A stretch of 64,000 bases of DNA from Sphaerochaeta associata (GTDB lineage: Bacteria > Spirochaetota > Spirochaetia > Sphaerochaetales > Sphaerochaetaceae): NCBI RefSeq assembly GCF_022869165.1, contig NZ_CP094929.1:186001-250000 (forward strand), read 5' to 3'. The position numbers and the translations under genes were made by a program. Position 1 is the stretch's first letter; each line of letters begins with the position of its first letter. Of the stretch, positions 24,985 to 40,260 are shown one piece after another. Under the pieces are notes generated by a model, which did no database searches, was not told where the DNA came from, and saw nothing but the letters and a program-made list of their open reading frames with translations.

Positions 24985-26489
24985 GAGCACGCCTGATTCA
25001 GATCGATCCCGCCGACAATGTTGCCATCGTAACCGAGGCTGCAAGCAAGGGTGAAACGGTGTCCGGTCTCACCCTGCTTTCCGACATCCCCCAGGGCCAC
25101 AAGGTGGCCCTCAGGGATTTGAAGAAGGGAGAGGCCGTCCTGCGCTACGCTGTGGTGCTCGGCTACCTGCTTGAGGATGTAAAGAAAGGGATGTGGATCA
25201 ACGAGCATATGCTTGAGCTTCCGCTGCAGCCTTCGCTTGACGAGTTGCAGTTCAGCCAGCCTGATGATGTGCTTCTTCCAAAGCCTGGTCGGACTACCTT
25301 CGAAGGGTATGAAAACCCTGACGGCGGGTACGCTGGAACGCGAAATATTCTTGCCATTACCACCACGGTCCAGTGTGTCAGCGGGGTGGTCGACCAGCTG
25401 GTCAGGCGCATTAAAAGTGAATTGCTGCCGAAGTATCCGAATGTCGATTCGGTGGTCGCAATCAACCACGCCTACGGCTGCGGGGTTGCGATCAACGCCC
25501 CCGATGCCGTCATTCCCATCCGTTCGATACGAAATACCATCAAGAATCCCAACTTCGGCGGCCAGGTGATGGTCGTAGGTCTTGGGTGTGAGAAGCTCAC
25601 CGTCGACAAGCTGCTGAACGAGGAAGAGATCAATGTTGAGAATGTAATCATGCTGCAGGACCATTCAGGCTTTGTTGCGATGATGGATGCGCTGATGCAG
25701 ATGGCCGACTCGAAGCTGAAGAAGCTGAATGAGCGCAAGCGAACGACCCTTCCTCTCTCCAAGCTCTGCATTGGCATGCAGTGCGGGGGCAGTGATGCTT
25801 TCAGTGGCATTACCGCCAATCCTGCTGCAGGCCATGCCAGTGATTTGCTTGTATCAGGTGGGGCTACGGTGATGTTCAGCGAGGTGACCGAGGTACGCGA
25901 CGGTGTACACCTGCTTGCCAAACGCTGTACGAGCAAGGAAGCTGTCGACAAATTGGTTGCCGAGATCGGTTGGTACGATCAGTATCTTGCAAAGGGTAGT
26001 GTCGACCGCAGTGCCAACCCGACTCCAGGCAATAAGAAAGGAGGCCTTTCAAACATTGTCGAGAAGGCGATGGGATCGATTGTGAAGAGCGGCAAGGCTC
26101 CCATTGTCGAGGTCATCGGACCCGGAGAGCTGCCGACCAAGCGCGGTCTACTATTTGCAGCGACGCCGGCCAGCGATATTGTCTGCGGTCCTTCCCAGCT
26201 TGCCAGTGGTATTACCCTGCAGGTCTTTATGACCGGTCGTGGTACGCCCTACGGCCTGGCCGAGGCTCCGGTGATCAAGGTCTGCTCACGCAATGTCATG
26301 AAACAGATGTGGCAGGACCTCATCGACCTCGATGCAGGCGGTATTGCCACCGGTGAAGAGACGGTGCAAGAGGTGGGTGAACGCTTGTTCAATCTCATCC
26401 TCGATGTGGCAAGCGGCCAAAAGCCGTATGCAGAGCAGTTCGGTCTGAACAACTTCCTCTGCTACTTCAATCCGGCTCCTATCACATGA
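24981..26489 (+). CDS. garD: Galactarate dehydratase (UxaA/GarD family)
   Basis: A 502-residue protein (E. coli GarD is 523). The N-terminal SAF-like domain (about 1-95) is followed by the large domain beginning FEGYENPDGGYAGTRNILAI. AINHAYGCGVAI, VVGLGCEKL and GMQCGGSDAFSG contain the conserved cysteines and histidine of the iron-binding site. It dehydrates galactarate (or a related diacid) to 5-keto-4-deoxyglucarate, converging with GudD. Altronate dehydratase is the main alternative within the family, but the cluster context favours galactarate. Confidence 0.85.
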   Translation: MRARLIQIDPADNVAIVTEAASKGETVSGLTLLSDIPQGHKVALRDLKKGEAVLRYAVVLGYLLEDVKKGMWINEHMLELPLQPSLDELQFSQPDDVLLPKPGRTTFEGYENPDGGYAGTRNILAITTTVQCVSGVVDQLVRRIKSELLPKYPNVDSVVAINHAYGCGVAINAPDAVIPIRSIRNTIKNPNFGGQVMVVGLGCEKLTVDKLLNEEEINVENVIMLQDHSGFVAMMDALMQMADSKLKKLNERKRTTLPLSKLCIGMQCGGSDAFSGITANPAAGHASDLLVSGGATVMFSEVTEVRDGVHLLAKRCTSKEAVDKLVAEIGWYDQYLAKGSVDRSANPTPGNKKGGLSNIVEKAMGSIVKSGKAPIVEVIGPGELPTKRGLLFAATPASDIVCGPSQLASGITLQVFMTGRGTPYGLAEAPVIKVCSRNVMKQMWQDLIDLDAGGIATGEETVQEVGERLFNLILDVASGQKPYAEQFGLNNFLCYFNPAPIT

Positions 26490-26517
26490 GAAGCAGGAAC
26501 ACTCGATGCAACGACAG

Positions 26518-26546
26518 AAGGGACACTTTTAAGGAGGTGTCCTTTC
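26518..26546 (+). terminator. Terminator of the tctCBA-garD operon
   Basis: Stem GGACAC (26521-26526) / GTGTCC (26537-26542), extended by weaker pairs, followed by TTTCATTCATT. Confidence 0.6.
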
Positions 26547-26558
26547 ATTCATTACGAT

Positions 26559-26575
26559 TGTTCAATAATTGAACA
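26559..26575. promoter_or_regulatory. 17-bp operator-like palindrome, site 1
   Basis: TGTTCAATAATTGAACA: 7-bp arms around a 3-bp centre. Nearly the same as 27005-27021. Confidence 0.4.
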
Positions 26576-27004
26576 GGAACAGGCGTCTTATCACTATACG
26601 ATTTATACATTTCTTACCGCTTGTTCATACTTTCTTCATCAATACCGTGTTTACTATAGCCAAGAAACCAAGGAAGCAGGGCAATGCCACAAGCGATACC
26701 TTGGACGGAAGAGATAGGTTGCCAGACAACCTGCCTGCGGCACAGCAGGGGAGCAAGGAGACTCGATCCCTTGTCCTGTTGGAAGGCCGCAAGGCCAGAA
26801 TCGGAACCCCTTCCAAGAAGCCGACTGTGAAGTCGGTCTTTCTGTATTATTGGAGTTCTTGCAGTACCAGAAATGTTGGTGTCACTGACTAACAACTGCG
26901 GCATTGCTGTCTCTCATATAACGACTACGATAAAACTCCATAACAGATTGGCCAAGCAACTCTGCTGCCTTTGCCTCTTCATTTGTTCCTGCCTCATAGC
27001 AGTA

Positions 27005-27021
27005 TGTTCAAAATATGAACA
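27005..27021. promoter_or_regulatory. 17-bp operator-like palindrome, site 2
   Basis: TGTTCAAAATATGAACA: 6-bp arms, same length and ends as the site at 26559-26575. It lies about 130 bp upstream of the next promoter. The regulator is unknown. Confidence 0.4.
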
Positions 27022-27148
27022 AGCTTTTCTCTGATGAACTCTACACTAGTAAAAGTATTTTATATGGGCACAATAAACTACAAATCACAAAAAACCTGCA
27101 TAAAGTGTGATAAAACTCACATAATCTGCTGGAATTATGTGATTAATT

Positions 27149-27177
27149 TTGACTGCTTTTCGATTTCGTTCTATACT
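27149..27177 (+). promoter_or_regulatory. Strong sigma70 promoter of the DUF4143 ATPase gene
   Basis: TTGACT (27149-27154), 17 bp, TATACT (27172-27177). Confidence 0.75.
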
Positions 27178-27201
27178 TAACCAGAAGAGAGGAAAGGGTG
27201 A

Positions 27202-28539
27202 ATGGAAAGAAATGCAATGCAGGATTTGGTTGCTTGGAAAGAGTCACCGTACCGAAAACCACTACTTCTCCAAGGCATTCGCCAAGTAGGAAAAACTTGG
27301 CTGCTCAAGGAATTTGGTAGGAGATACTATGAGCGGGTGGCCCTTTTCAACTTTGATGAACATCCAGAATATCGACAATTCTTTTCATCGACCAAGGATA
27401 TAACGAGGATTTTAAGCAATCTCCAGTTTGCCATCGGCTTTCCAATTACAGAAGGCTCGACGCTCATAGTGTTTGACGAAATCCAGGATGCTCCTGAAGT
27501 ATTGAACTCGTTGAAATACTTTCATGAAAATGGAAAGGGATATCATGTTGCCTGTGCTGGGTCGTTGCTGGGAGTGGCTTTGGCAAAACCCTCTTCCTTC
27601 CCCGTCGGCCAGGTTGATTTTTTACGAATCCTGCCTCTTACGTTTAGGGAAATGCTGGTTGCAGAGGATGAGAAGAATTTGATTGCATATCTGGATGCGA
27701 AAGTTGATTTGGATCCAATTCCCGATGCTTTCTTCAATCCTTTGGTTGAGAACTTAAAGAAATATTTTCTGATTGGTGGGATGCCTGAAGCCATGGCTCG
27801 ATGGGTGAACGAGAAACATAGTGGACAGATAGACGGTATCTTATGGTCGATCATCCAAGCCTACGAACGGGATTTTGCAAAACACCCCGAGCCGAGGGAG
27901 TATCCGAAACTGATGCATATCTGGCATTCGCTTCCTTCCCAACTAGCAAGAGAAAACAAGAAATTCTTGTACCAACTCGTGAAACAAGGAGCGAGAGCAA
28001 GAGAGTATGAGGATGCACTTCACTGGTTGGTTTCTGCTGAAGTTGTTACAAAGGTGCCTCGCTGTACCAAACCTGCTTTACCCTTGTCGGCATATGAGGA
28101 TCTGTCTGCTTTTAAAGTCTATGCAGCCGATGTTGCTTTACTGAGGAGACTGGCTCAACTGGATATCTCATCATTCCTCCATCCTACACAATTGTTTACC
28201 GAGTTCAAGGGAGCATTTGTAGAGAATTATATTCTGCAAGCATTGACTGCAGCGTTTCCTGTCCCTTTACGGTACTGGACCAGTAGTGATAACCGATATG
28301 AGGTTGACTTCCTTCTCCAACATAAGAATCATATCATCCCTATCGAGGTAAAGGCAGACACCAATATCTCCAGCTCTTCGTTGAAAGCCATCAAACGCCT
28401 GCATGACAATGATTTTGGTTTGAGAATTCGGTATTCCTTACAGAATCTCAAACTCGATGGTGATGTACTCAATATCCCTTTCTTTATGGCTGATTGGACT
28501 GAGAAACTCATAACCCTGGCATTGCAGCGTAGCGTTTGA
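27202..28539 (+). CDS. AAA_14 / DUF4143 ATP-binding protein
   Basis: A 445-residue protein. The N-terminal AAA_14 domain has Walker A GIRQVGKTW (about residues 25-33) and Walker B TLIVFDEIQDAPE. The C-terminal DUF4143 domain has a PD-(D/E)XK-like core: ENYILQAL, EVDFLLQHKNHIIPIEVKAD. The family is very common in accessory regions of bacteria and archaea and its role is unproven; some authors suspect a toxin or transposon-linked function. AT-rich codon use relative to the sugar-acid genes suggests acquisition. It has its own promoter and SD (GAGGAAAGG). Confidence 0.87.
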   Translation: MERNAMQDLVAWKESPYRKPLLLQGIRQVGKTWLLKEFGRRYYERVALFNFDEHPEYRQFFSSTKDITRILSNLQFAIGFPITEGSTLIVFDEIQDAPEVLNSLKYFHENGKGYHVACAGSLLGVALAKPSSFPVGQVDFLRILPLTFREMLVAEDEKNLIAYLDAKVDLDPIPDAFFNPLVENLKKYFLIGGMPEAMARWVNEKHSGQIDGILWSIIQAYERDFAKHPEPREYPKLMHIWHSLPSQLARENKKFLYQLVKQGARAREYEDALHWLVSAEVVTKVPRCTKPALPLSAYEDLSAFKVYAADVALLRRLAQLDISSFLHPTQLFTEFKGAFVENYILQALTAAFPVPLRYWTSSDNRYEVDFLLQHKNHIIPIEVKADTNISSSSLKAIKRLHDNDFGLRIRYSLQNLKLDGDVLNIPFFMADWTEKLITLALQRSV

Positions 28540-28589
28540 GAAGCAATCCGAGCCTGCTTCTTCCTTAGGACATACCGGATTACCCTATA

Positions 28590-28605
28590 GGACCAATGTT
28601 GGTCC
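28590..28605. promoter_or_regulatory. Palindrome upstream of the AlbA-type gene
   Basis: GGACCAATGTTGGTCC: 7-bp arms, 2-bp centre. The adjacent TACCCTATAGG (28581-28591) matches most of the HipB-type site at 29889-29902, so the HipB regulator might also act here. Inference only. Confidence 0.3.
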
Positions 28606-28653
28606 GATAATAGTGTAATCGGCTCATTCTGTCATAGGCTAAGGAGAAATGAG

Positions 28654-29858
28654 GTGATTGAAGTGCCGCAAAGCAGAGATTGCGAGTATACGGTTGTATA
28701 CACACCCTCTTGTTTGAAAACAGTATCGGCCTTTGCCAACTATCTTGATGGCCGACTTATCTTCGGCATCAAGGATGACCGTACCGTTCTTGGTGTTGAG
28801 AATGTCCAGCAGTTGATGCTGCAGATCGAGCATGCCATCAATGACGGAATTTCTCCACGCCCGTCGTATAAGCTTTCCACGTGTACACGAGAAGGCCGCC
28901 AATTAGTTGTCCTCTCAGTCTGCAAAGGAATGAATCCACCGTATTATTATCAGCATCGTGCCTATGTGCGTTTCGATGCCTCTACTGCACCTGTTGATGC
29001 CGCACAATTGAGACAGTTGGTTCTCCAAGGTAGTGCCCTCGCATACGAAGAGCTGCCGGCAAGCAAACAGGATCTGAGCTTCAAACAATTAGAGGCAGAG
29101 TTTCAGAAGGTTCTGGGCATCGAGACCCTGAGCAACGATCTTCTCAAAACTCTGGGACTGGTCGATCGGCAAGGGTATACCTATGCCGGTCAGCTTCTCA
29201 GTGATAGTCCCGGGCCTTTTCACGCTTCACTGGACATTGCCAGGTTTGGAGAGAGTTCTTCCATATTTCTGCATCGGGAGAGTCTGGAGGAATGCTCGGT
29301 ATTGTATCAATACCATCGTGTTCTTGAGCTTTTGGATGCATGGTATGGTCAGTATGAGCAAGTCAGTGGATTCTACCGGGAAAAGCGTATCCAGATTCCA
29401 CGAGAAGCTTGCCGGGAGGTCTGCCGTCAGGCCTTTCTCTTGCTGAATATCTTGGCGGCCGAATTTCAGTTCCGAGAAATGTAATATTGGCCCAAGTATT
29501 CCATCGGCTTGCAATCATGGAACGCTTTGCCACCGGAGTACGAAGGATTCAGGAGTCCTATATGGACTTTCTGCAAAAACCATCCTTTCTGGTTGCTGAG
29601 AACACCGTAACCGTTGTACTTCCGAAGGTCAGCTATGGTGAGGTTCATGAGAGAAAACTGTATGCACCCGATATGAAGGCTGTACACCAGCGTGTACTTG
29701 CTCTGTTTTTTACATCGGAGACGATCACCCGATCCGATGTCGAGCACCAGCTGGGTGTCAGCGCCACCAGTGCCAAGCGAGTCCTTGCCGGGATGATGCA
29801 GTCGTATTTGGTGAAAAAGGAAGGCGATGGTCCGGCTACTCGGTATAGGAGGTTGTAG
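28654..29858 (+). pseudogene. AlbA_2-domain ATP-binding/transcriptional regulator, internal deletion and frameshift
   Basis: The GTG at 28654 has SD AAGGAG 7 nt upstream. The first frame encodes an AlbA_2 (divergent AAA_4) domain: ANYLDGRLIFGIKDDRTVLG, and RAYVRFDASTAPVDAAQLRQL. It runs to IPREA near 29410 and then reads out of frame. The second frame picks up at PGGLPSGLSLAEYLGGRISVPRN and continues with ATGVRRI and a C-terminal winged helix to the stop at 29858. In intact relatives about 30 residues lie between IPREA and SPGGLP, so roughly 80-100 bases are deleted with loss of frame. Such proteins are regulators or defence-associated factors. This copy is inactive. Confidence 0.82.
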
Positions 29859-29902
29859 ATATACCTTGTAAGGTATATATACAAAAACTACCCTATAGGG
29901 TA
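29853..29902 (+). promoter_or_regulatory. hipBA promoter with two operator palindromes
   Basis: TTGTAG (29853-29858), 17 bp, TATATA (29876-29881). Two related palindromes overlap and follow the promoter: TACCTTGTAAGGTA (29862-29875) and TACCCTATAGGGTA (29889-29902). HipB is known to repress its own operon through such repeated palindromes. Confidence 0.7.
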
Positions 29903-29926
29903 TGCTGATACAGCATAGGAGGATGT

Positions 29927-30172
29927 ATGCAATACCCTATCCAGACACCGGTCCAATTAGGTTCTTACCTCAGGACACGCAGGAAGGCTTTGGGCTTGAC
30001 GCAGAAGGAAGCCGCTTTGAGAATCGGTCTGCTTCCTAAAACCATCTCTGCGTTGGAGAACGATCCTCTTCATTGCTCGATCGAGAGTCTGTTGCGGCTG
30101 CTTTCAGCTCTGAATTTGGAATTCCTCTTGCAAGGCAAGGAGGATGCTCCTCAAGGGAATATGTGGGAATGA
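29927..30172 (+). CDS. hipB: HipB-type antitoxin (XRE family)
   Basis: An 81-residue protein with an XRE helix-turn-helix: LGSYLRTRRKALGLTQKEAA, IGLLPKTISALEN and SLLRLLSALNLEFLLQ. SD AGGAGG lies before the ATG. It neutralises HipA and represses the operon. The TGA overlaps the hipA ATG (ATGA). Confidence 0.87.
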   Translation: MQYPIQTPVQLGSYLRTRRKALGLTQKEAALRIGLLPKTISALENDPLHCSIESLLRLLSALNLEFLLQGKEDAPQGNMWE

Positions 30173-31473
30173 GAACACAGACGACACTTGATGTATGGAT
30201 GAATGGAACATTTGTGGGCCGTTGGTCGAGAGACAAGGGTGTCCATACGTTTGAGTATGATGTTTCCTATGTACAAAACCCAAACGCCTGCCCGCTTTCT
30301 CTCTCTTTACCCTTGTACCAAACTTCTGTTGGTACGTTTGTTGAATCATTTTTTGATAATCTCCTTCCCGATAGCTTTGAGATCAGGCGAAGACTTGCTC
30401 GACGGTTTGGATGTGCATCGGATTCTGCCTTCGATATTCTCGCTGAGACCGGGCGTGATTGTGTCGGAGCTCTACAGATACTGAAAAAGGATAGTCCGAT
30501 ACCTTCAGTACGCACTGTTGAGAAGCAAGCTCTTACTGAACATGAGATTGAACTGCTTCTTCTGGATGCTGTCTCCAATAATCCAATATCGGTGAACAAT
30601 GACGATTTCTTTCGTATTTCCCTTGCTGGAGCACAGGAAAAAACAGCATTGCTGTTTCATGATGGTTCGTGGTGCATGAGCCTTGGTGCAACTCCCAGCA
30701 CCCATATTATTAAATTACCAATACGTGCAATGAATTCACTTAGCCTCGATTTGCATAACTCAGTCGAGAATGAGTGGCTTTGCCTGCAGATTCTTCAAGC
30801 TTTCGGTCTGCCTGTTGCTCAAGCGGATATGCATGATTTCGGCAACCAGCGTGTGCTGGTGGTAAAGCGTTTTGATAGAAAGCTTTCCGGTGATGGCTCT
30901 TGGTATGTTCGAATCCCTCAGGAGGATTTTTGCCAAGCTCATGGACTTCCTTCAAGCCGGAAGTATGAAGTTGATAAGGGAGTGGGAATACAAGCGTGTA
31001 TGGATTTGCTCCAAGCTTCCAGCCAGGCGTATGGAGACAGGAAGACCTTTCTTAGTGCACATTTCCTCTATTGGCTCATGGCCGCACCTGATGCTCATGC
31101 CAAGAATTTCAGCCTGTATCTTGAACAACAGGGACGCTTTCGGATGACACCGCTCTATGACGTGCTTTCTTTGCATCCGGTGATTGAACAGGGCAAAGGA
31201 CAGATATTTGATCGGAAAGTAACGCTGGCAATGGGGTTGGAGCGCAGAGCTCATCGATATGGTTGGTCGACTATGCAAAGGCAGCATTGGTTGGATACTG
31301 CAAAACTTTGCGGTGCCGAACACATAATGCAGACTATCATGGATGAAACGTTGCATGACCTGCCACAAGTCCTTGAGCGCTTGGAGAGTCAATTGCCGCA
31401 GGATTTTCCACAAGACGTAGCACAGCCGATATTCAATGGAATGCGAAAGGCCGCTTTACGATTGCAATCCTAG
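30169..31473 (+). CDS. hipA: HipA-type serine/threonine kinase toxin
   Basis: The ATG at 30169 is chosen for its overlap with hipB; longer in-frame starts run through the antitoxin gene. The 434-residue protein (E. coli HipA is 440) has the N-terminal HipA_N domain (WMNGTFVGRW, FFDNLLPDSFEIR). The kinase core includes SLAGAQEKTALLF (151-163), VVKRFDRK, catalytic DAHAKNFSL (D308, N313) and the metal-binding TPLYDVLS. HipA phosphorylates glutamyl-tRNA synthetase and induces growth arrest and persistence. All key residues are present. It is convergent with and overlaps the helicase gene by 4 bp. Confidence 0.9.
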   Translation: MRTQTTLDVWMNGTFVGRWSRDKGVHTFEYDVSYVQNPNACPLSLSLPLYQTSVGTFVESFFDNLLPDSFEIRRRLARRFGCASDSAFDILAETGRDCVGALQILKKDSPIPSVRTVEKQALTEHEIELLLLDAVSNNPISVNNDDFFRISLAGAQEKTALLFHDGSWCMSLGATPSTHIIKLPIRAMNSLSLDLHNSVENEWLCLQILQAFGLPVAQADMHDFGNQRVLVVKRFDRKLSGDGSWYVRIPQEDFCQAHGLPSSRKYEVDKGVGIQACMDLLQASSQAYGDRKTFLSAHFLYWLMAAPDAHAKNFSLYLEQQGRFRMTPLYDVLSLHPVIEQGKGQIFDRKVTLAMGLERRAHRYGWSTMQRQHWLDTAKLCGAEHIMQTIMDETLHDLPQVLERLESQLPQDFPQDVAQPIFNGMRKAALRLQS

Positions 31474-33017
31474 CAATTGGATTTCTCCCTCAAGAGGGCG
31501 AGGGTCCGCATGCAGCTGTAATAACGCTTCTTCACAGGGCTCGTCGCTTGCCTATGCCATGTCTGAAGCACCTCAGGCTCCTCGTACCAGTCGTTTCGCA
31601 CCCTCCCTTGGTCAAGCAGTGTCTGTAGGCCCGGGATGGGTTTCTTGCTCTTTAGGACTGCTTCAGTCAATGCATCGGCAAGCTCGTCATAGGAAGGATG
31701 GATGAATCGATCGGTGTAGGAAAGATACCCCTCCTGCACCATCTCAATGCCCTCCTCCAGTAGATTGGCATCTTCTACCGTGTCTGCCAGGGAAAGGTAG
31801 AAGAGACTTGCCTTGTGCTTGCCCTCCTGGCGTCTGAGCACCCTTCCCATGCGCTGCACACGCTGGCGTTGTTCACTGGTGGAGGAGAGGATGATCCCCA
31901 CATCGGCAGACGGTATGTCCAACCCTTCGTCGAGAGCCTTGCAGGAGACAAGGATTCGGGCCTCCCCGCTTCGATAGTTCTCCAGTGCAATGGTCCGCTC
32001 GACATCGCCCATCTCACTATGGTAGTGCACCACTTCCTTGGGGTAGCGACGTTTGAGTCTCTCATACAACTCCTCGCTTTGGGTTATCCGCTCGCCGAAG
32101 ATGATGATCTTGCTTGTATGGTCAAGAAGAGCGATGAGGTCGAAGGTACAATCGAGGCGCTGGGGTGCCAGGTTGATGAGGGCCCTGCGTTGCTGATAGA
32201 GACCTAGGAGCAGTCTGGCAAGTTCAGCGATGGTTTCATCCTTGCTGGAGCAAAGATCCTCAAGGGCGTAGAAGAATGCAAGCCCTTTGAGTTTGTCCAG
32301 GTAGGGAGCAAGTTTTTTCAATCGTTTTGACGTGTTGCTGATTCTTCCTGAGAGCTCAGAATAGGTAAGTTTCTGCATCTCCGTCATGGTAATTTCGATG
32401 TTGTGGATCACCGCTTGGTTGATCACCCCTTGCTGCATCGCTTCATTGAACCCGTAGGTATAAAAGAGCGGGCCAAGGGCTGGTACCAGATGGGCGGCGA
32501 ATCCATTGGTCTGGGGTGTGGCCGACAACCCAAGGGCGTGATAGCACTTGTTCTCTTCTTCAGACAACCCATCGAGGAAGGAGAATATCTTTCGGTTCTC
32601 CGCACTGGCATAGTGATGGCACTCATCGGCGATGAGCAGCACCGGTTCCTTGTTCTTGATCTTCTGCAGCAGGATGTTTGCTAGTGTGTACCGCGCTGAG
32701 TTGACTACATAGATCATCACCGGCTTGTCATGCGCCTGGTGGTGATTTCCATGGACCCAGCCGATATCATCACGTCTAAGGCCCAGATCGTGCTGGTGCG
32801 AGAGGATGCTCGCCTTCCACTGACCGACGAGGAAAGTCTTTGGGACGACGATGACGATATGAAGTCTCTTTGCAAGGTGCAGTTGCAGCTGTCTGGCGGC
32901 GTAGAGTGCCAGGATGGTTTTCCCGGCTCCGGTGACCACTTGCACAATACCACGGCCTTTGTTTTGCAGCCAGGATTCAATGCATGCGCTCTGCCATGCA
33001 TATAGTGAGAAGCTCAT
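31470..33017 (-). CDS. Superfamily II DEAD/DEAH-box helicase (SSL2/XPB-like)
   Basis: A 515-residue protein. Q-like motif LYAWQSACI, Walker A VTGAGKT (28-34), DECHH (131-135) as motif II and GLSATP (163-168) as motif III form the first RecA domain. In the second RecA domain KIIIFGERITQSEEL, ILVSCKALDEGLDIP and QRVQRMGRVLRR (motif VI) are all intact. It is a double-strand translocase or helicase of the type found in restriction and defence loci. It is transcribed away from the adjacent operon at 33151-36384; such a helicase next to BREX-type ATPases suggests one system. Confidence 0.85.
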   Translation of the reverse strand: MSFSLYAWQSACIESWLQNKGRGIVQVVTGAGKTILALYAARQLQLHLAKRLHIVIVVPKTFLVGQWKASILSHQHDLGLRRDDIGWVHGNHHQAHDKPVMIYVVNSARYTLANILLQKIKNKEPVLLIADECHHYASAENRKIFSFLDGLSEEENKCYHALGLSATPQTNGFAAHLVPALGPLFYTYGFNEAMQQGVINQAVIHNIEITMTEMQKLTYSELSGRISNTSKRLKKLAPYLDKLKGLAFFYALEDLCSSKDETIAELARLLLGLYQQRRALINLAPQRLDCTFDLIALLDHTSKIIIFGERITQSEELYERLKRRYPKEVVHYHSEMGDVERTIALENYRSGEARILVSCKALDEGLDIPSADVGIILSSTSEQRQRVQRMGRVLRRQEGKHKASLFYLSLADTVEDANLLEEGIEMVQEGYLSYTDRFIHPSYDELADALTEAVLKSKKPIPGLQTLLDQGRVRNDWYEEPEVLQTWHRQATSPVKKRYYSCMRTLALLREKSNC

Positions 33018-33150
33018 CGCGTAGGTACACTCCTTCAGTCACCCTAACATAGCAACCTTTGTATGGCAATGTATTGTTTTGTTCCTTTTAGGATTGAACA
33101 GCTTCTGCACATACTCTATGATTTTACCGATGTACAGTGAAGGAGAAGTC

Positions 33151-33915
33151 ATGGATTACGATACCTTGTATGGTGAGTATTTGGTCTTTGAGAAGTCTTT
33201 GAAGGAGAAGCTCAAGACGTTGACCAAGTTGCAGAAATCAGTTGCGAAGCAGATGGAGAGCGGCGATGTGTTCCGCTGTGTTTCCGATACCGCCTCTCTG
33301 AATCAAGTCGGCGGGGAAGTCGAGTCCATTGCCGGTGAAATGCATGCCTTGTTGGAAGGCTTCGATGCAAGAGAGTACCTGGAAAGCGGCTTGTTCACCG
33401 AACAGTTGCTCGCCGAATGTGCAAAGAAGGGTGTCGACGTAATCGGGTCCTTCCCTGTATTTGAGATGTTTCCCTACACCGTACGCATCGATGTGGAAAA
33501 CCAGGAGGTTTTTGTCGACCGCAAGAAGGTTTCGTGTCTGAGGCCTTCGGCTTTGGTGAGCACCATCAAGGGCGGGCAGGAGAAACTCTACAAGGCGAGT
33601 TTCAATGCAACCCAGTTCGCCAACGAGTTGGCTGTTGCCTATGACCTTGCTCTCTTGAGCTTGAACAAGCCAGCCGGATCGGATCTGTATCTGACAACGC
33701 TGTATAAGTATCTGGTACCGATGAGCCGGTTCCGCAAGGACTACGACCAGCAAAGCTATGCCTTCGATATCGCCCGCCTGTTCGATAATGAGATGGTGGA
33801 GGTCAAGGGAGGGAGAAGCTATCAGTTCGGCCCGAGCCGCAACAGCAACAAGACGCTTCGCATTCTCGACCGAAGCGGAGCAGAACATTTCCTGGCCACA
33901 ATCAGGTTCTTTTAG
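33151..33915 (+). CDS. Uncharacterised protein of the helicase/BREX-type ATPase locus
   Basis: The ATG at 33151 follows SD AAGGAG (33140-33145). A longer frame from 33079 lacks one. The 254-residue soluble protein has a Lys/Glu-rich N-terminal helix likely to form a coiled coil (LVFEKSLKEKLKTLTKLQKS). The middle is mixed alpha/beta (FEMFPYTVRIDVENQEVFVDRKKV) and the end is basic (FGPSRNSNKTLRILDRSGAEH). I recognise no catalytic motif or family. It is the first gene of a tight operon with two P-loop ATPases (11 bp, then a 17-bp overlap), so it probably works with them, for example as a DNA-binding or sensor subunit. Confidence 0.7.
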   Translation: MDYDTLYGEYLVFEKSLKEKLKTLTKLQKSVAKQMESGDVFRCVSDTASLNQVGGEVESIAGEMHALLEGFDAREYLESGLFTEQLLAECAKKGVDVIGSFPVFEMFPYTVRIDVENQEVFVDRKKVSCLRPSALVSTIKGGQEKLYKASFNATQFANELAVAYDLALLSLNKPAGSDLYLTTLYKYLVPMSRFRKDYDQQSYAFDIARLFDNEMVEVKGGRSYQFGPSRNSNKTLRILDRSGAEHFLATIRFF

Positions 33916-33926
33916 TGAGGTAGCAG

Positions 33927-35186
33927 ATGGAGACAGAGACACGGATCAGCGCAACCATCGCCCAGCTTTCCCAGGGCGAGGTTCCTGAAAGCGAGGAGTT
34001 GCTCGACCAGCTTACGGTTGGTTTGCAATTCCTTACCGACTTTTGGCGCGAGAAGTACCTGCAGCAGTTCATCCTGCAAGGCGGCAGCAAGATCAAATTC
34101 CTGACCGGCGGCAAGGGCAGTGGGAAGACGCACTGCCTGCACCTGTTCCAATCGGTTGCCAAACAGGAGGGATATTTGACGGTTTCCCTCTCTGCGCGGT
34201 CGCTCTGGCTCCACGATTTTCGTGAGTTCTATCTGGAGGTGCTCAAGCAAGCTGATGTGATGGGCTTGCTCGGGCGTTGCAGTGAACGAATCGTTGAGGC
34301 TATGGGATTCTCTGCCGATGATATCGAACCTGGTTCTACGTTCTTGGACCGCCTTGCCATCGAAGGCTTGGCCGACGGCCTTACCCGCCGCGAGATCCGC
34401 AACCAGCTGAAGCAGATGTTTCTGGACAACCGTCGGATGGACAACAACTTCAGCCTTGCCTGCAGTCTGCTCTGCGGCTCCTTGCTCGGCCATCCTGCTC
34501 TTGAGCAGGCAAACAAGGATCTTGTCCTTGGATGGATGCATGGTGATAAGAAGATCCGCATGACCAGCCTCAGGCCTTTGGGGATGGCTCCAAGCAGAAT
34601 CACCAAGTACAATGCCCGCAACCTCTTGCGCTCGCTTGCAGAGCTGGTGCACCTTGCAGGCTACAACGGCCTGGTGGTCACCGTCGATGACCTGGATGTG
34701 ATGGTGGACAATTCGGGCATGAATCCGTTCCACTACACGAAGATGAAGCGTGAGGATACCTATGAGAGCATCCGCCAGCTCATCGACGACATCGATACAT
34801 TCAGCCACTTCCTTGTTGTGTTCGGTTTTGGCCGCGAGCTTATCGACAATGAGAATGCGGGTCTGAAGGCGTATCAGGCACTGTGGATGCGCATCCAGAA
34901 CGAGGTGGTCTCCGATAGGATCAACACGTTCACCGACATCATCGATCTCGATGCCGTAGCCATGCAGGTGTATACACCAGAAATGCTGGTGCAGATGAGC
35001 CAGAAACTGGCCGCGATCGTACAGCATATCAATGTAGAGACACGGCCCATCGATGAGCAGATCGCCCAGCACTTGATCAAACAGGCAAAGTTGGGCGGGG
35101 TTTCGATCCCGCGTTTGGTGAATCAGGCGACATTGGGGTTGCTCAAGGCCGATACAGAGGAGGGTCAGTATGAGCTGGGGGTATGA
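33927..35186 (+). CDS. BREX-type P-loop ATPase 1 (BrxC/BrxD-like)
   Basis: A 419-residue AAA+-like ATPase with Walker A TGGKGSGKTH (60-69) and Walker B VVTVDDLDVM (about 249-258). The domain after Walker A and the FLVVFGFGRELIDNENAGL sensor region recall the DUF2791 ATPases annotated in BREX loci, but similarity is weaker than for the next gene. Two diverged ATPases side by side suggest a heteromeric ring or a pair with separate roles. It overlaps ATPase 2 by 17 bp. Confidence 0.68.
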   Translation: METETRISATIAQLSQGEVPESEELLDQLTVGLQFLTDFWREKYLQQFILQGGSKIKFLTGGKGSGKTHCLHLFQSVAKQEGYLTVSLSARSLWLHDFREFYLEVLKQADVMGLLGRCSERIVEAMGFSADDIEPGSTFLDRLAIEGLADGLTRREIRNQLKQMFLDNRRMDNNFSLACSLLCGSLLGHPALEQANKDLVLGWMHGDKKIRMTSLRPLGMAPSRITKYNARNLLRSLAELVHLAGYNGLVVTVDDLDVMVDNSGMNPFHYTKMKREDTYESIRQLIDDIDTFSHFLVVFGFGRELIDNENAGLKAYQALWMRIQNEVVSDRINTFTDIIDLDAVAMQVYTPEMLVQMSQKLAAIVQHINVETRPIDEQIAQHLIKQAKLGGVSIPRLVNQATLGLLKADTEEGQYELGV

Positions 35187-36384
35187 AGAGAGACATATGA
35201 TCGAGGCCCTGCGCTCGGGGATCCCTTCGAAGGCGATCGGGCATCATTTTTGCGAGGCGCGTGCCGACTTGTTGAGCAGCATCATCGAACAGCTCGATCA
35301 AGTATGTGAAGAAGGCACCAGCGATGCCATGATTTTCAGCGGCAAGTATGGCGAGGGCAAGACCCACCTGCTCAATACCGTCTATACGCTCGCCCATGCA
35401 CGCAACATGGTGGTTTCGGTGGTATCATTGAGCAAGGAGACTCCGCTGGACAAGCCGTATCTGGTCTATCCGAAGTTGATCAGCAATACGTACCTGCCCG
35501 GGCATCTGCAGCCGGGGTTCATCCAGGAGCTGGATAAGCTTACTCCCAATGTCCCGCTCACCAATGACCTGCTTCTGTATGCAGCTACGCAGCTTGAGAC
35601 CGATAGGCTCTACTATCTCTTGCGTTCCTATGTACATACCGACGACCAGGAGGAGCAGTTCCTTCTGCGTACCGATATGGAAGGGGATTTTGTTCCCAAC
35701 CCCATGATCAAGAAGATGTACCGCAGGATTTTCAATGAAAAGGTGTCGTTCAATCAGAACTTTGTGAAGTCACGGCATACCAAGGACTATATCGCTTTTG
35801 TCAGCCACTTGTTCCGGCAGCTGGGCTATCGGGGTTGGGTGGTGCTCTTCGATGAGTCCGAGTTGATCGGTCGCTTGAGCAAGAAGGCTCGCTCCAAGGC
35901 TTACCAGACGATTGCTTCCTTCCTGTTTCCTCCCAAGCAGCTGGAGGCAACGTTCAGTCTGTTTGCGTTCAGCTCCTCCTATACCGAGGATGTGATCGAA
36001 GCCAAGGCGGAGTACCAGAATCTGGAGGAGTTGTACCCTGAGGACCAGATGCCGATGAAGGCTGTTCTGGATGCGATTGTGAATGCTCCCCAGCTCAAGC
36101 CGCTGACACCACGTGAAATCCAGCAGATTTTGGAGAAGATCGTGGATTTCCACGGCAAGGCGTATGACTGGAAGCCCGATGTCGACTTGAAGGCGATGCT
36201 TTCACAAGTTGACCGCAGCGGCTATCTCCTGCGTTCCAAGATCAGAAGTGCCATCGAGTACCTCGACCAACTTTATCTCTACCACTCGGTGGGCAATAGT
36301 ACGGTCAGGGCGTTGGAGGAGGAGAAGTACGAAGAGGATGCGGTCGACAACACTCCCACCTTCGAGGAGTTGTTCGAGGAGTAG
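35170..36384 (+). CDS. BREX-type P-loop ATPase 2 (DUF2791, BrxD-like)
   Basis: A 404-residue protein. The N-terminus EALRSGIPSKAIGHHF is the typical opening of the DUF2791 / BREX ATP-binding family. Walker A is SGKYGEGKTHLL (57-68), Walker B WVVLFDESELIG (about 222-233), and SSSYTEDVIEAK and PLTPREIQQILEKI follow. In BREX type 2 and 4 loci this ATPase (BrxD) accompanies other factors, but no BREX methylase (PglX) or phosphatase (PglZ) is present here. The operon is therefore not canonical BREX. It resembles loci that pair this ATPase with an SF2 helicase. Confidence 0.8.
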   Translation: MSWGYEERHMIEALRSGIPSKAIGHHFCEARADLLSSIIEQLDQVCEEGTSDAMIFSGKYGEGKTHLLNTVYTLAHARNMVVSVVSLSKETPLDKPYLVYPKLISNTYLPGHLQPGFIQELDKLTPNVPLTNDLLLYAATQLETDRLYYLLRSYVHTDDQEEQFLLRTDMEGDFVPNPMIKKMYRRIFNEKVSFNQNFVKSRHTKDYIAFVSHLFRQLGYRGWVVLFDESELIGRLSKKARSKAYQTIASFLFPPKQLEATFSLFAFSSSYTEDVIEAKAEYQNLEELYPEDQMPMKAVLDAIVNAPQLKPLTPREIQQILEKIVDFHGKAYDWKPDVDLKAMLSQVDRSGYLLRSKIRSAIEYLDQLYLYHSVGNSTVRALEEEKYEEDAVDNTPTFEELFEE

Positions 36385-36391
36385 ATGGATG

Positions 36392-36411
36392 GGCCCTCCG
36401 GGAGGAGGGCC
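36392..36411 (+). terminator. Hairpin at the end of the ATPase operon
   Basis: An 8-bp GC-rich stem (GGCCCTCC / GGAGGGCC) with loop GGGA, without a clear T tail. Confidence 0.5.
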
Positions 36412-36453
36412 TGGTACGCTAGAAACATGGTTCCCTTGTTTTAGTAAACATTT

Positions 36454-37722
36454 TTACAATCCCAGACATCCAATAGGTACTACATGGACACCATCCTTTC
36501 TAGTATATGCATACTTTGTTCCTGTAAGTATCATGAGAAAAGAGGGGTGTTTCATTCTGTTTGTATCTAGCCGCTCCTGAAGTTTTAGAAGATTTCCGGC
36601 TGCCGTATCGATAGCACTGCCTCCAAGCTTTACCTCAACCAATCCAAAAGAACCATTTCTAAGATGAATAACTGCGTCACACTCGAGATCGGTTTTATCT
36701 CTGTAATGGTAAACATTCCCATCAAGAGCTTCTGCAAAGACTCGTAGGTCACGTATGCAGAGATTTTCAAAGAAAAGTCCCATGGTCTGTAAATCGTCTA
36801 ACAAATCTTGTGGCCCTATTCCCAATGATGCAGTAGCAATAGATGGATCGGTAAAATGCCGTGTATCAGTCGTTCTGATTGCGGTTTTTGAACGAAGCTT
36901 TGGGTTCCAAGCTGGAAGGTCTTCTACAACAAAAATCTTTTTTAATGCAGAAATATATGTATAGACAGTGTTATAATCAAGAGTATCAACATCATTCGCT
37001 ACCATATCATCACGAATTGTGGTTATTTTTGCATCTGAAGCTATAAATCTAGAATACGAATGCAATAAGTTTTTCATGCGTTGTGGATCTTTCGCGATTC
37101 CATCAACTCTAGATGCATCTTTATTAACAATCGAGTCTACATAATCAAATGCTTGTTGCAAGGCAACTCTTTGTGACTGGCCGATGGCTTTGGGCCATCC
37201 ACCTCTACAAATAAGGAATGCTAATTCCTCAATGGAAATGTTGCTATCTGCTGAGATTTCATTTTTTGAGCCAAATAGGGACCGTAAGGAGACCGACCCA
37301 TCAGAATCTTTACTCTCAAAAAGTGACATAGGCCGCATAGTCATTCTTGTTATGCGACCCGTCCCCGAGTGTGAATTTGACATATCGTCAGCTGGGACAA
37401 AGGATCCGGTGAGAATGAATTGATTGAATTCATCCCGCTTATCAACATCAAAACGGATGGCATCCCATAGTTTTGGTGCAAGTTGCCATTCATCGATAAG
37501 CCTGGGAGTTTTTCCTTTAAGTAGTTGCAATGGATTCAACTCTGCTAAAGCGAGATTTTGTTCTTTGTCCAAGGGATCTTGCATATACACAACGCTTTTC
37601 GCTTTTTGCAATGCTGTAGTTGTTTTTCCACACCATTTTGGCCCTTCAATAAGTACGGCACCTTTGGCTTCAAGCCCATCGCTTAATACTATATCTGCAA
37701 TTCTAGGAAGATACTCTTTCAT
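36454..37722 (-). CDS. AAA_14 / DUF4143 ATP-binding protein (second, distinct subfamily)
   Basis: A 422-residue protein with Walker A EGPKWCGKTTTA (about 26-37) and Walker B-like PRLIDEWQLAP. QFILTGSF and the central helical region follow. The C-terminal DUF4143 nuclease-like core is KTDLECDAVIHL ... FGLVEVKLGG. It shares family, but little sequence, with the gene at 27202. Codon use is AT-rich compared with the operon next to it, suggesting lateral acquisition. Its upstream side holds a tandem repeat array. Confidence 0.85.
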   Translation of the reverse strand: MKEYLPRIADIVLSDGLEAKGAVLIEGPKWCGKTTTALQKAKSVVYMQDPLDKEQNLALAELNPLQLLKGKTPRLIDEWQLAPKLWDAIRFDVDKRDEFNQFILTGSFVPADDMSNSHSGTGRITRMTMRPMSLFESKDSDGSVSLRSLFGSKNEISADSNISIEELAFLICRGGWPKAIGQSQRVALQQAFDYVDSIVNKDASRVDGIAKDPQRMKNLLHSYSRFIASDAKITTIRDDMVANDVDTLDYNTVYTYISALKKIFVVEDLPAWNPKLRSKTAIRTTDTRHFTDPSIATASLGIGPQDLLDDLQTMGLFFENLCIRDLRVFAEALDGNVYHYRDKTDLECDAVIHLRNGSFGLVEVKLGGSAIDTAAGNLLKLQERLDTNRMKHPSFLMILTGTKYAYTRKDGVHVVPIGCLGL

Positions 37723-37776
37723 ATGGATTTCTCCTTCAAGAATAAATTATTATAAAAAAATGAAATAGTCAACCAA

Positions 37777-37975
37777 ATTCAGTAGAATGGACCGTTTTCA
37801 TTCAGTAGAATGGACCGTTTTCATTCAGTAGAATGGACCGTTTTCATTCAGTAGAATGGACCGTTTTCATTCAGTAGAATGGACCGTTTTCATTCAGTAG
37901 AATGGACCGTTTTCATTCAGTAGAATGGACCGTTTTCATTCAGTAGAATGGACCGTTTTCATTCAGTAGAATGGA
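37777..37975. repeat. Perfect 23-bp tandem repeat array (8 full units plus 15 bp)
   Basis: Units start at 37777, 37800, 37823, 37846, 37869, 37892, 37915 and 37938, with a partial unit at 37961-37975. Each contains the core AGTAGAATGGACCG. Units are identical and contiguous with no spacers, so this is not CRISPR. The ATGGACCGTTTT part recalls the repeated terminal sequences of IS21-family elements, but no transposase is nearby. Confidence 0.97.
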
Positions 37976-38373
37976 TTAGAATCCATACCTCGATCCGGTT
38001 CCTCTCACACTGCGATACGCTTGAAATAATCCTTTGCTTCTTTTCTATTGGGGAATTTTTCCTTTGAGCTCTTTTACGAGTATGCGAACTGTTGTACATG
38101 GGCACATCTTGGAAGGAAGGGTGATGCACTGGTTTTTGTATTCTGCATATTTTGTCTCAACGATTGAAATTGCTGAATTGGTGAGAAGGTGCTTTATCAA
38201 AGGAAAATGACCATATAAATGAGATAAAACCTCACTAAGATGTATATTTCTCGATAACTATCCGGACTTACTCATTGAGCTCTCTTGTCTAGTCTGCTCG
38301 ATGCCTGTTTAGACCGACAACGATTCTTGTCGGTCCGTCTCAGTACAGAGAGACAATTGCTTGAACACTGAGA
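37976..38373. other. Intergenic region without a recognisable gene
   Basis: About 400 bp between the repeat array and the terminator of the glycoside operon. No open frame with an SD or a known family is seen on either strand. It may hold remnants of the element that brought in the DUF4143 gene. Confidence 0.5.
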
Positions 38374-38411
38374 GTAATAAAGCAGGCCGGCCTCCTATGA
38401 AGCCGACCTGC
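38374..38411 (-). terminator. Terminator of the glycoside-use operon (minus strand)
   Basis: Stem GCAGG-C-CGGC (38382-38391) / GCCG-A-CCTGC (38402-38411) with one mismatch. On the minus strand it is followed by TTTATTAC. Confidence 0.6.
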
Positions 38412-38453
38412 AAAGGGTGTTATGAAGAACTCAGAAGTAGGGCCTACCCCGTA

Positions 38454-39326
38454 TCAACCTTTGACGCCTCCGAGCATGAGGCCTGAAACGAAATGTTTCT
38501 GCACGAACGGGTAGATGATCAGAACCGGAAGCATGCCCAGTACCATGACTGCCATCTTCAGGTTGTTGTAGACATACTGACCACCGCCGAGCGACTCGTC
38601 GGATTCGAACATCAATGAGCGCAAGACCACCTGCAGGGTGTACTTGCGGCTGTCGTTGATGAACATGATAACCTCGAAATACCTGTTCCAGTAACTTACA
38701 AAGTAAAACAACGTAACAGCGGCAATGATGGAGACCGAAAGAGGCAGGACGATTTTCAGCAGGATGGTAACGTCGTTGCAGCCGTCGAGGGTGGCGCTCT
38801 CAATCAGCGAGACCGGGATGCTGGTCATATAGTTCTTGATGATGACCAAATTGAACGTCGAGATGGCAACCGGGAATATGATCGCCCCCATGCTGTTGAT
38901 GAGCCCAAGCGACCGTACAACGATGTAGAAGGGCATAATGCCCGCATCGAAGACCATCGTGAACACAATCGCCTTCATGATGATTGACCTGCCCACCAGA
39001 TGCTTCTGCGCCAAGGCGAAGCCCATCGGAACGGTGATCAGCATCGAAAGCGCGGTGCCCAAGAAGGCTACGAACAGCGAGTTCTTGAAGGCTCCCATGT
39101 AGCCGCTGTTGAGCACGCGCCAGTAGTTCTGCAGCGTGAACGAACGGGGCATGAGCAGGTAGTCGGCACCCATGACATCAATGTCTTTGGCAACGGAGGT
39201 GATGAGGACGTTCCAGATGGGAATGATGAAGATCAGGCAGATGAATGCCAAAAGCAGGGTGTTGATCACCCGAAAGAGCTTGCGGCTCCCGCTTTCGCGG
39301 ATTGTGGTCGGTGTGGTTTGCTTCAT
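38454..39326 (-). CDS. Carbohydrate ABC transporter permease, LplC/YtcP type
   Basis: A 290-residue CUT1 permease with six membrane segments. The N-terminal helix LLLAFICLIFIIPIWNVLITS and the loop DYLLMPRSFTLQNYWRV are typical of the LplC branch. The EAA contact loop to the ATPase is ESATLDGCNDVTILLKIVLPLS. It pairs with the LplB-type permease 10 bp upstream. No ATPase gene is in the operon, so a shared MsmK-like ATPase elsewhere is expected. Confidence 0.9.
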   Translation of the reverse strand: MKQTTPTTIRESGSRKLFRVINTLLLAFICLIFIIPIWNVLITSVAKDIDVMGADYLLMPRSFTLQNYWRVLNSGYMGAFKNSLFVAFLGTALSMLITVPMGFALAQKHLVGRSIIMKAIVFTMVFDAGIMPFYIVVRSLGLINSMGAIIFPVAISTFNLVIIKNYMTSIPVSLIESATLDGCNDVTILLKIVLPLSVSIIAAVTLFYFVSYWNRYFEVIMFINDSRKYTLQVVLRSLMFESDESLGGGQYVYNNLKMAVMVLGMLPVLIIYPFVQKHFVSGLMLGGVKG

Positions 39327-39336
39327 GCTCTATCTC

Positions 39337-40260
39337 CTACAGAATCGGTTCGTCCAGGAACCGGGCGCTGAGCTTGTTGGTGGAGAGCACCAACGTCAAG
39401 CTGACAATGGACGTGAACATACCCACTGCGATCGAATATCCCAAATCACCTGCAAGCACCCCTTCGCGGAATACATAGGTCTGCAGTACATCGGCCACGT
39501 CGTAGACGGCGGCGTTATACATGACCAGCACCTGCTCGAATATCAGCAGCACATGGCTGAGGTTGAGAAGCAGCATGGTCACAATCGTGGAACGGATGCC
39601 CGGAATCGTCACATGCCACAGCCGTCCCCAGTGGCCGGCCCCGTCGATGGTCGCAGCCTCGTAGAGCTCGGGCTGGACCGTCGTCAGGCTCGCCACATAG
39701 ATGACCGCCCCGTAGCCCATCTGACGCCAGATGTAGGAGCTGACCAGAACAGGACGGAAGAATTTCGCACTCGCCATGAAATAGACCGGCTCGCCACCGA
39801 ATTTGGTGATGATGTTGTTCACCAAGCCGGTGGAAGGGGAGAGCAAGTTAACGAAAATACTGCCCACCACAACCCAGCTGAAGAAGTAGGGAATGTAGAT
39901 GAGAAACTGAATGAACCGCTTGGACTTCACGCTCTTCAGCTCATTGATCATCAGGGCGACGATGAGCGGGGCGGGGAAGTAGAAGACAATGTTCGCCAGG
40001 CTGATAACCAACGTATTACGGAACGCATTCCAGAAAATCGTCGAGGAGAGCAGGCGCTGGAAATTCTCCAGTCCTACAAACGAAACCTTCGAGCGGAATC
40101 CATAGTCGGTGAATCCCAGGCTCAACCCCAAGAGGGGAAGGTATTTGAACAAGAGGTACCAAACCACGCCCGGCAGGAGCATCAGAAGCAGGAACTTCTG
40201 GCTCTTCAGCCGAGTCAAGAGCGGTGGTTTTGTACGAATAACTAATGGTTTGTCTGCCAT
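39337..40260 (-). CDS. Carbohydrate ABC transporter permease, LplB type
   Basis: The ATG at 40260 has SD AAGGAG 7 nt upstream, so the longer frame from 40284 is not used. The 307-residue protein has six membrane segments, with the MLLPGVVWYLLFKYLPLLGL first helix and the EAA loop EAATIDGAGHWGRLWHVTIP. It forms the channel with LplC. Together with the damaged binding protein upstream they make a CUT1 oligosaccharide importer. The neighbouring GH3 enzyme suggests a beta-linked oligosaccharide. Confidence 0.9.
   Translation of the reverse strand: MADKPLVIRTKPPLLTRLKSQKFLLLMLLPGVVWYLLFKYLPLLGLSLGFTDYGFRSKVSFVGLENFQRLLSSTIFWNAFRNTLVISLANIVFYFPAPLIVALMINELKSVKSKRFIQFLIYIPYFFSWVVVGSIFVNLLSPSTGLVNNIITKFGGEPVYFMASAKFFRPVLVSSYIWRQMGYGAVIYVASLTTVQPELYEAATIDGAGHWGRLWHVTIPGIRSTIVTMLLLNLSHVLLIFEQVLVMYNAAVYDVADVLQTYVFREGVLAGDLGYSIAVGMFTSIVSLTLVLSTNKLSARFLDEPIL

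Follow-up and report, generated by a model that had tools for sequence, protein, structure and literature searches.

What could a DNA helicase gene be doing back to back with an operon for an undescribed protein and two related ATPases? The question is raised by a 64,000-nucleotide stretch of the Sphaerochaeta associata genome (contig NZ_CP094929.1, positions 186,001 to 250,000; hereafter called "the window"). The original prediction placed a possible non-canonical defence system of four divergently arranged genes at 31470-36384, and all of the open reading frames (ORFs) indeed lie there in that layout:

31470..33017, minus strand: superfamily 2 (SF2) DEAH helicase, 515 residues, Pfam ResIII/Helicase_C
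33018..33150, no strand: divergent intergenic region between the helicase and p254 genes, 133 bp
33151..33915, plus strand: p254, an undescribed protein of 254 residues
33927..35186, plus strand: atp1, a BrxC/D-class (PF10923) P-loop ATPase of 419 residues
35170..36384, plus strand: atp2, a BrxC/D-class (PF10923) P-loop ATPase of 404 residues

The start of atp2 runs 17 bp into the end of atp1. We conclude that the trio of p254, atp1, and atp2 is probably a reusable part that deploys DNA helicases against invading DNA, since its relatives reside beside unrelated helicases and, in six genomes, at CRISPR-Cas operons. The more general reading, that the locus serves in defence, appears rather likely to us.

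The trio as the conserved core

In order to define the unit, we assembled 67 homologous loci from a p254 search of the relatives of the window and of genome contigs, two partly overlapping sets. All four genes are present in 60 of these loci, as judged by tblastn, and the usual layout is that of the window, with the helicase gene pointing away from p254, atp1, and atp2 in that order; L048 departs from it, as its helicase gene lies 3′ of atp2 and shares its strand. Where fewer than four genes were found, the locus mostly ends at a contig edge, and L057 retains only about 45 helicase residues. The recorded hosts belong to Sphaerochaetaceae/Spirochaetales, to Lachnospiraceae and other Clostridia, and to Desulfosporosinus. 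Beyond the cassette, no further family is seen in more than 9 of 47 loci. The cassette is thus a unit, as it recurs whole while its flanks share few genes, and the arrangement is not due to chance, given its presence in 60 of the 67 loci, many of which lack other common flanking genes. The co-occurrence expected of the four genes was thereby borne out.

Is the helicase an obligate member of this unit? We searched for remote relatives with a p254 profile (alignment A1) and then with a broader one (A2), in 1804 genome scans covering mostly Bacillota and Spirochaetota. The first profile yielded remote homologues with 20-30 % identity in other Bacillota, and the second added more. Two PF10923-class ATPases follow p254 wherever the sequence suffices, while the DEAH helicase is usually not there. 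The real core is the trio p254-atp1-atp2, which stays together in each of the lineages found. The prediction of a four-gene unit therefore holds in so far as the genes co-occur, but the core is smaller and is found with other helicases and with CRISPR-Cas. Two weak p254 matches lay at the limit of the search: we retained the one in G784 (L254), since genes for two PF10923 ATPases and a DEAD helicase come after it, and the one in G713 (L255), which lies in another gene cluster, was taken as chance and left out. In the part of the literature covered, we found no description of the trio or of the p254 family, no paper for DUF2791, and none on the topic for PF10923; the passages found in the main text of a 2023 CRISPR discovery paper contain no module of the trio type.

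Partner motors and CRISPR-Cas operons

Which motors accompany the trio? The partners span at least five motor families: DEAH SF2 helicases, superfamily 1 (SF1) helicases, SNF2 helicases, BrxL, and DEAD/Helicase_C proteins. An SF1 helicase with AAA_11/AAA_12 domains and a topoisomerase-type zinc ribbon adjoins the trio in 15 loci, SNF2 helicases adjoin it in four (L199, L213, L251, and L252), BrxL in two (L113 and L211), and a DEAD/Helicase_C ORF pair in the distant spirochaete locus L254. The class of partner tracks the clades of the trio tree (FastTree), except for a single case within the CRISPR clade. A helicase or translocase lies within two ORFs of the trio in 56 of 66 places, as compared to 4 of 463 more distant flanking ORFs, in a count that covers the places where two or more ORFs were called on each side; 54 of the motor-adjacent places belong to a single DEAH lineage, and the motor reference set was drawn partly from the neighbourhoods counted. 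The ORF caller missed some motors, as L253 and L035 do carry the DEAH helicase.

Some of these loci have further features. In L192-L212 (the class of G473), the trio and the SF1 helicase of about 865 residues form a second stand-alone four-gene architecture, seen in about 15 loci. In L251, L252, and L213, the trio is separated from the SNF2 helicase gene by a gene for a protein of about 190 residues, which in L213 matches no Pfam family. In one lineage (L110, L116, and L117), a helix-turn-helix (HTH) protein of 350-420 residues precedes the trio; no helicase is seen near the trio in L116 and L117, and the trio of L110 adjoins a BREX-like set consisting of DUF6079, a DNA methylase, an SNF2-type helicase, and PglZ. 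In L115 (3901-8577), the trio is followed by an undescribed 437-residue protein, an Hsp70-like protein, and another undescribed gene.

The second line of evidence is the location of homologous trios within or bordering CRISPR-Cas operons in six genomes, a setting unlike that of the window cassette, where a repeat scan of the window revealed no CRISPR array and no cas genes adjoin the four genes. The operons are of types I-A, I-B, and I-D. The G137 trio has cas1 on one side and, on the other, the gene for a Cas3-type helicase that belongs to a type I-D operon (Csc1, Csc2, and Cas10d) with an adjacent CRISPR array; in G513, the trio separates cas1 from a second I-D set, whose Cas10d-type protein scores 1262 bits. 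Type I-B components (Cas3, Cas5b, Cas7b, and Cas8b) are encoded beside the trio in G282 and G515, with a CRISPR array at the G515 locus, and type I-A components (Cas5a, Cas7, and Cas8a) in G431. In G473, cas6 comes after the trio, at the contig end. In addition, G520 has a p254 reading frame between cas3 and a cas4/csa1-like gene, where the ATPases are not recognisable. The CRISPR-linked trios and L199, whose 5.4-kb contig holds just an SNF2 helicase beside it, form one clade. A small membrane-like protein, which we take to be DUF4282, is encoded beside CRISPR-linked trios (L140, 9889-10248 and 13509-13769; L190, 9270-9674; L111, 7780-8148).

Could the CRISPR-linked trio serve spacer acquisition (adaptation) rather than interference? 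It lies directly beside cas1 in G513 and G515, with gaps of a few base pairs, which leaves an adaptation role as open as a Cas3 role; it adjoins the cas1/cas4 end in G137 and G282, and the effectors differ (I-A, I-B, and I-D) while the Cas1 and Cas4 proteins are closely related. We nevertheless consider adaptation improbable as the sole function, as other lineages keep the trio beside a helicase without cas1, cas3 also adjoins it in G137 and G282, the gene after it in G473 is cas6, and cas1 was not seen in the stretch of G431 that was fetched.

Protein features and relation to known systems

Next, we investigated what the four proteins are likely to do. The helicase best matches PbeA (PADLOC, E 2.9e-61) and TIGR04095 (NCBIfam), with weaker matches to XPB/RAD25. 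Its PbeA alignment begins at profile position 251, which corresponds to the helicase part, and neither a nuclease domain nor a PLD match was found in Pfam or PADLOC. Because the window cassette shows no nuclease domain, its action would require unwinding, displacement, or a host nuclease.

Both ATPases match PF10923 (BrxC_BrxD), atp1 with 110.6 bits and atp2 with 93.4 bits (Pfam cut-off 22.2). The second ATPase had been called BrxD-like, which is correct, but it is not alone in this, since atp1 is just as BrxD-like by these scores. PADLOC ranks BrxD/SngB first for both. They reach 82.3 and 46.4 bits with the BrxD equivalog NF033438 (NCBIfam, curated cut-off 350 bits) and are therefore not BrxD by this cut-off. 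Their assignment to the BrxD/SngB class by Pfam, PADLOC, and NCBIfam agrees with the expectation that they would not group with a housekeeping family. The Walker A motif of atp1 is GGKGSGKT, and its Walker-B-like VDD is devoid of the glutamate, while atp2 has the Walker A motif GKYGEGKT and the Walker B motif FDE. The Walker A motif of atp2 (a glycine-rich loop ending in G-K-[TS]) is conserved in all 97 aligned copies, and its Walker B D-E in all 95 copies that cover the region. In atp1, Walker A is kept in most lineages, D-D or D-N mostly replaces D-E, and the P-loop is gone in the CRISPR-linked genomes, L199, and L213. This motif pattern is consistent with a putative complex in which one subunit is catalytic and the other regulatory, and atp2 has the catalytic Walker A and Walker B motifs expected of an ORC/Cdc6-class loader AAA+ ATPase.

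The 254-residue protein has no match in Pfam, PADLOC, or NCBIfam, and sequence searches of the PDB gave nothing useful. Its AlphaFold model has a mean pLDDT (predicted local distance difference test score) of 89.5 for the whole chain and 87.7 for residues 72-254 alone. The model consists of a coiled-coil helical hairpin (residues 1-71), an alpha/beta middle, and a winged-helix-like C-terminal domain (residues ~152-254). For this domain, the best match among the structures re-aligned by VIA is Orc1 of 8s0e (Z 7.1, root-mean-square deviation 3.2 Å over 76 residues), followed by further ORC proteins, Cdt1, MCM, and other winged-helix proteins. We tentatively assign the predicted domain as a winged helix, and treat it as a lead, since the VIA notes put a winged-helix Z of about 7 near the background level. 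With the whole of p254, Foldseek and VIA returned generic coiled-coil matches alone, to residues 1-71; with residues 72-254, Foldseek found none at E <= 0.001, which is not evidence for a new fold.

How does the cassette compare with the known systems? The type 2 BREX (Pgl) pair BrxD-BrxHI resembles it in joining a PF10923 ORC/Cdc6-class AAA+ ATPase to an SF2 helicase, and BrxD is proposed to load or activate BrxHI (PMC12839542). In contrast, the trio has two paralogous ATPases and p254, and its helicase is DEAH/PbeA-like rather than BrxHI. The exclusion of BREX in the original prediction stands: with Pfam, PADLOC, and NCBIfam, PglZ, PglX/BrxX, BrxC, and PglW were not found among the four genes, and PglZ, PglX/BrxX, and BrxC were not found in the scanned flanks (27202-37722).

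Shango, composed of SngA (TerB), SngB (ATPase), and SngC (helicase), had been named as a partial likeness. The likeness in ATPase class and SF2 helicase is real, and both ATPases weakly match the SngB profile, which might suggest a Shango variant that lost TerB or carries p254 in its place. By sequence, however, the cassette is not Shango. It has two ATPases, an unrelated third protein, and, as predicted, no detectable TerB: p254 has no match to TerB/SngA at E up to 1, and the hhalign probability is 0.07 %. Moreover, the SngB scores are 64 and 61 bits for the two ATPases, as compared to 547 bits for a true SngB; SngC is absent among the 25 PADLOC matches of the helicase listed, with PbeA/TIGR04095 as its best matches; and a true Shango locus (L123) is present elsewhere in a Desulfosporosinus genome that also has the p254 cassette. 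A Shango variant is therefore a very unlikely explanation.

The window helicase core is related to PbeA of the PbeABCD/CxC-DndE systems. PbeA as published carries a nuclease domain of the PLD/HKD type (PMC6459918, PMC10853773), which was not found here, and the other genes have no matches to PbeB, PbeC (an ABC ATPase), or PbeD/DndE. The SspB-SspC and HerA/ORC neighbourhoods combine an ORC/Cdc6-class ATPase with a winged-helix protein, which p254 may also be, and some of these neighbourhoods include a further ATPase whose Walker motif is disrupted (PMC10853773). The partner there is, in contrast, HerA/FtsK or a restriction endonuclease.

Genomic setting and proposed action

The flanks of the window cassette contain HipBA, an AlbA/Schlafen-like gene, and two ATPases that both match the PADLOC candidate family PDC-S01:

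27202-28539: DUF4143 ATPase
36454-37722: DUF4143 ATPase

The AlbA/Schlafen-type gene (28654-29858) is apparently split into overlapping ORFs (28654-29484 and 29409-29858), in a frameshift-like manner. The start codon of p254 is the ATG at 33151, with the Shine-Dalgarno-like AAGGAGAAG upstream, and a weak, at most suggestive sigma-70-like site lies at 33094-33122 on the plus strand, between the helicase and p254 genes. No RNA was matched by Rfam in positions 24000-40000. The bordering HipBA, DUF4143 ATPases, and tandem repeats had been described correctly, the repeats being a single array of the perfect 23-bp unit ATTCAGTAGAATGGACCGTTTTC (8.7 copies, 100 % match, 37777-37975), between a DUF4143 ATPase gene and an ABC-permease operon.

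This repeat bears on the possibility that the genes belong to a decayed mobile element and serve its replication or transfer rather than defence, as a helicase, ORC-like ATPases, and a winged-helix-like protein also resemble a replication initiator set. We give this very little weight: no integrase, relaxase, or origin was noticed beside the cassette, which stands alone at many chromosomal sites, and the trio also occurs at cas operons.

Is the setting a defence island? The gene for p254 is present in 16 of 26 genomes of the genus (G000-G025), and is absent from the complete or near-complete G016-G019. The interval that holds the cassette is bordered by a putative altronate-dehydratase-like gene (24981-26489) and a putative ABC permease gene (38454-39326). 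The bracketed interval measures about 12 kb in G000, 17 kb in G018, 18 kb in G016, 27 kb in G017, and 40-44 kb in G001, G011, and G019, and includes the cassette in G000, G001, and G011. The G001 cassette has the permease on one side and a 480/500-residue gene pair on the other; at the same place, G019 has two transposases and an RloB-like/AAA_21 ATPase pair (L222, 12720-15016). The G011 interval contains AbiEii with DUF6088. The interval is thus variable but not a pure defence island, since much of its content consists of transport and metabolic genes. The predicted defence-island setting is supported by this variability within the genus, but not in the Lachnospiraceae, where ordinary genes are the usual neighbours.

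Several points, besides the two that limit the adjacency count and the modest fold score of p254, weigh against a defensive loading part. The cassette flanks in the Lachnospiraceae are mostly ordinary genes with no recurrent defence family. No helicase is directly beside three HTH-linked trios, L250, or L115. Helicases of these superfamilies are also common in repair. Finally, p254 has no match in the phage and plasmid records searched, and a pattern scan of viral contigs yielded no confirmed relative, so there is no direct sign of mobility. Together with the XPB/RAD25 matches, the ordinary surroundings and the missing phage, plasmid, and viral-contig relatives would suit a host module for DNA repair or replication restart. 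Such a module would load an XPB/RecG-like helicase onto forks that are damaged or have stalled, and its CRISPR and BREX links would reflect general usefulness. We regard this reading as unlikely, though the strongest of the alternatives, since the gene is patchy within the genus, the cassette interval is variable in content, the trio occurs at cas operons of three subtypes, and the ATPases are of the BrxD/SngB class.

How, then, might the trio act in defence? We propose an ORC/Cdc6-like (BrxD/SngB) helicase loader or activator module, a reading that extends the BrxD-BrxHI analogy (PMC12839542) and that we consider evenly balanced in its full form.

Assembly: The atp1 and atp2 proteins would form a hetero-oligomer, in which atp2 would hydrolyse ATP and atp1 would have a regulatory role. 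The coiled-coil arm of p254 may bind the partners, and its winged-helix-like domain may contact DNA.

Loading: ATP turnover would place or activate the partner motor on foreign or replicating DNA. The motor would be the DEAH helicase in the window, and an SF1, SNF2, or DEAD helicase, BrxL, or Cas3 in the relatives.

Clearance: The foreign or replicating DNA would then be unwound or cleared, and phages or plasmids may be excluded as the outcome.

More tentatively still, the trio might be an undescribed, interchangeable motor-loading immunity cassette, serving at least five kinds of motor and three type I subtypes, and giving CRISPR-Cas an ATP-driven loader or activator for Cas3 or for adaptation.

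The pairing of a BrxD-like ATPase with a helicase is common in defence, and loading has so far been proposed for type 2 BREX only. A compact trio of constant identity with a changing motor offers a clean test of the loading idea. The CRISPR-linked copies would mean that some type I systems have an extra ATPase module, undescribed in the papers searched.

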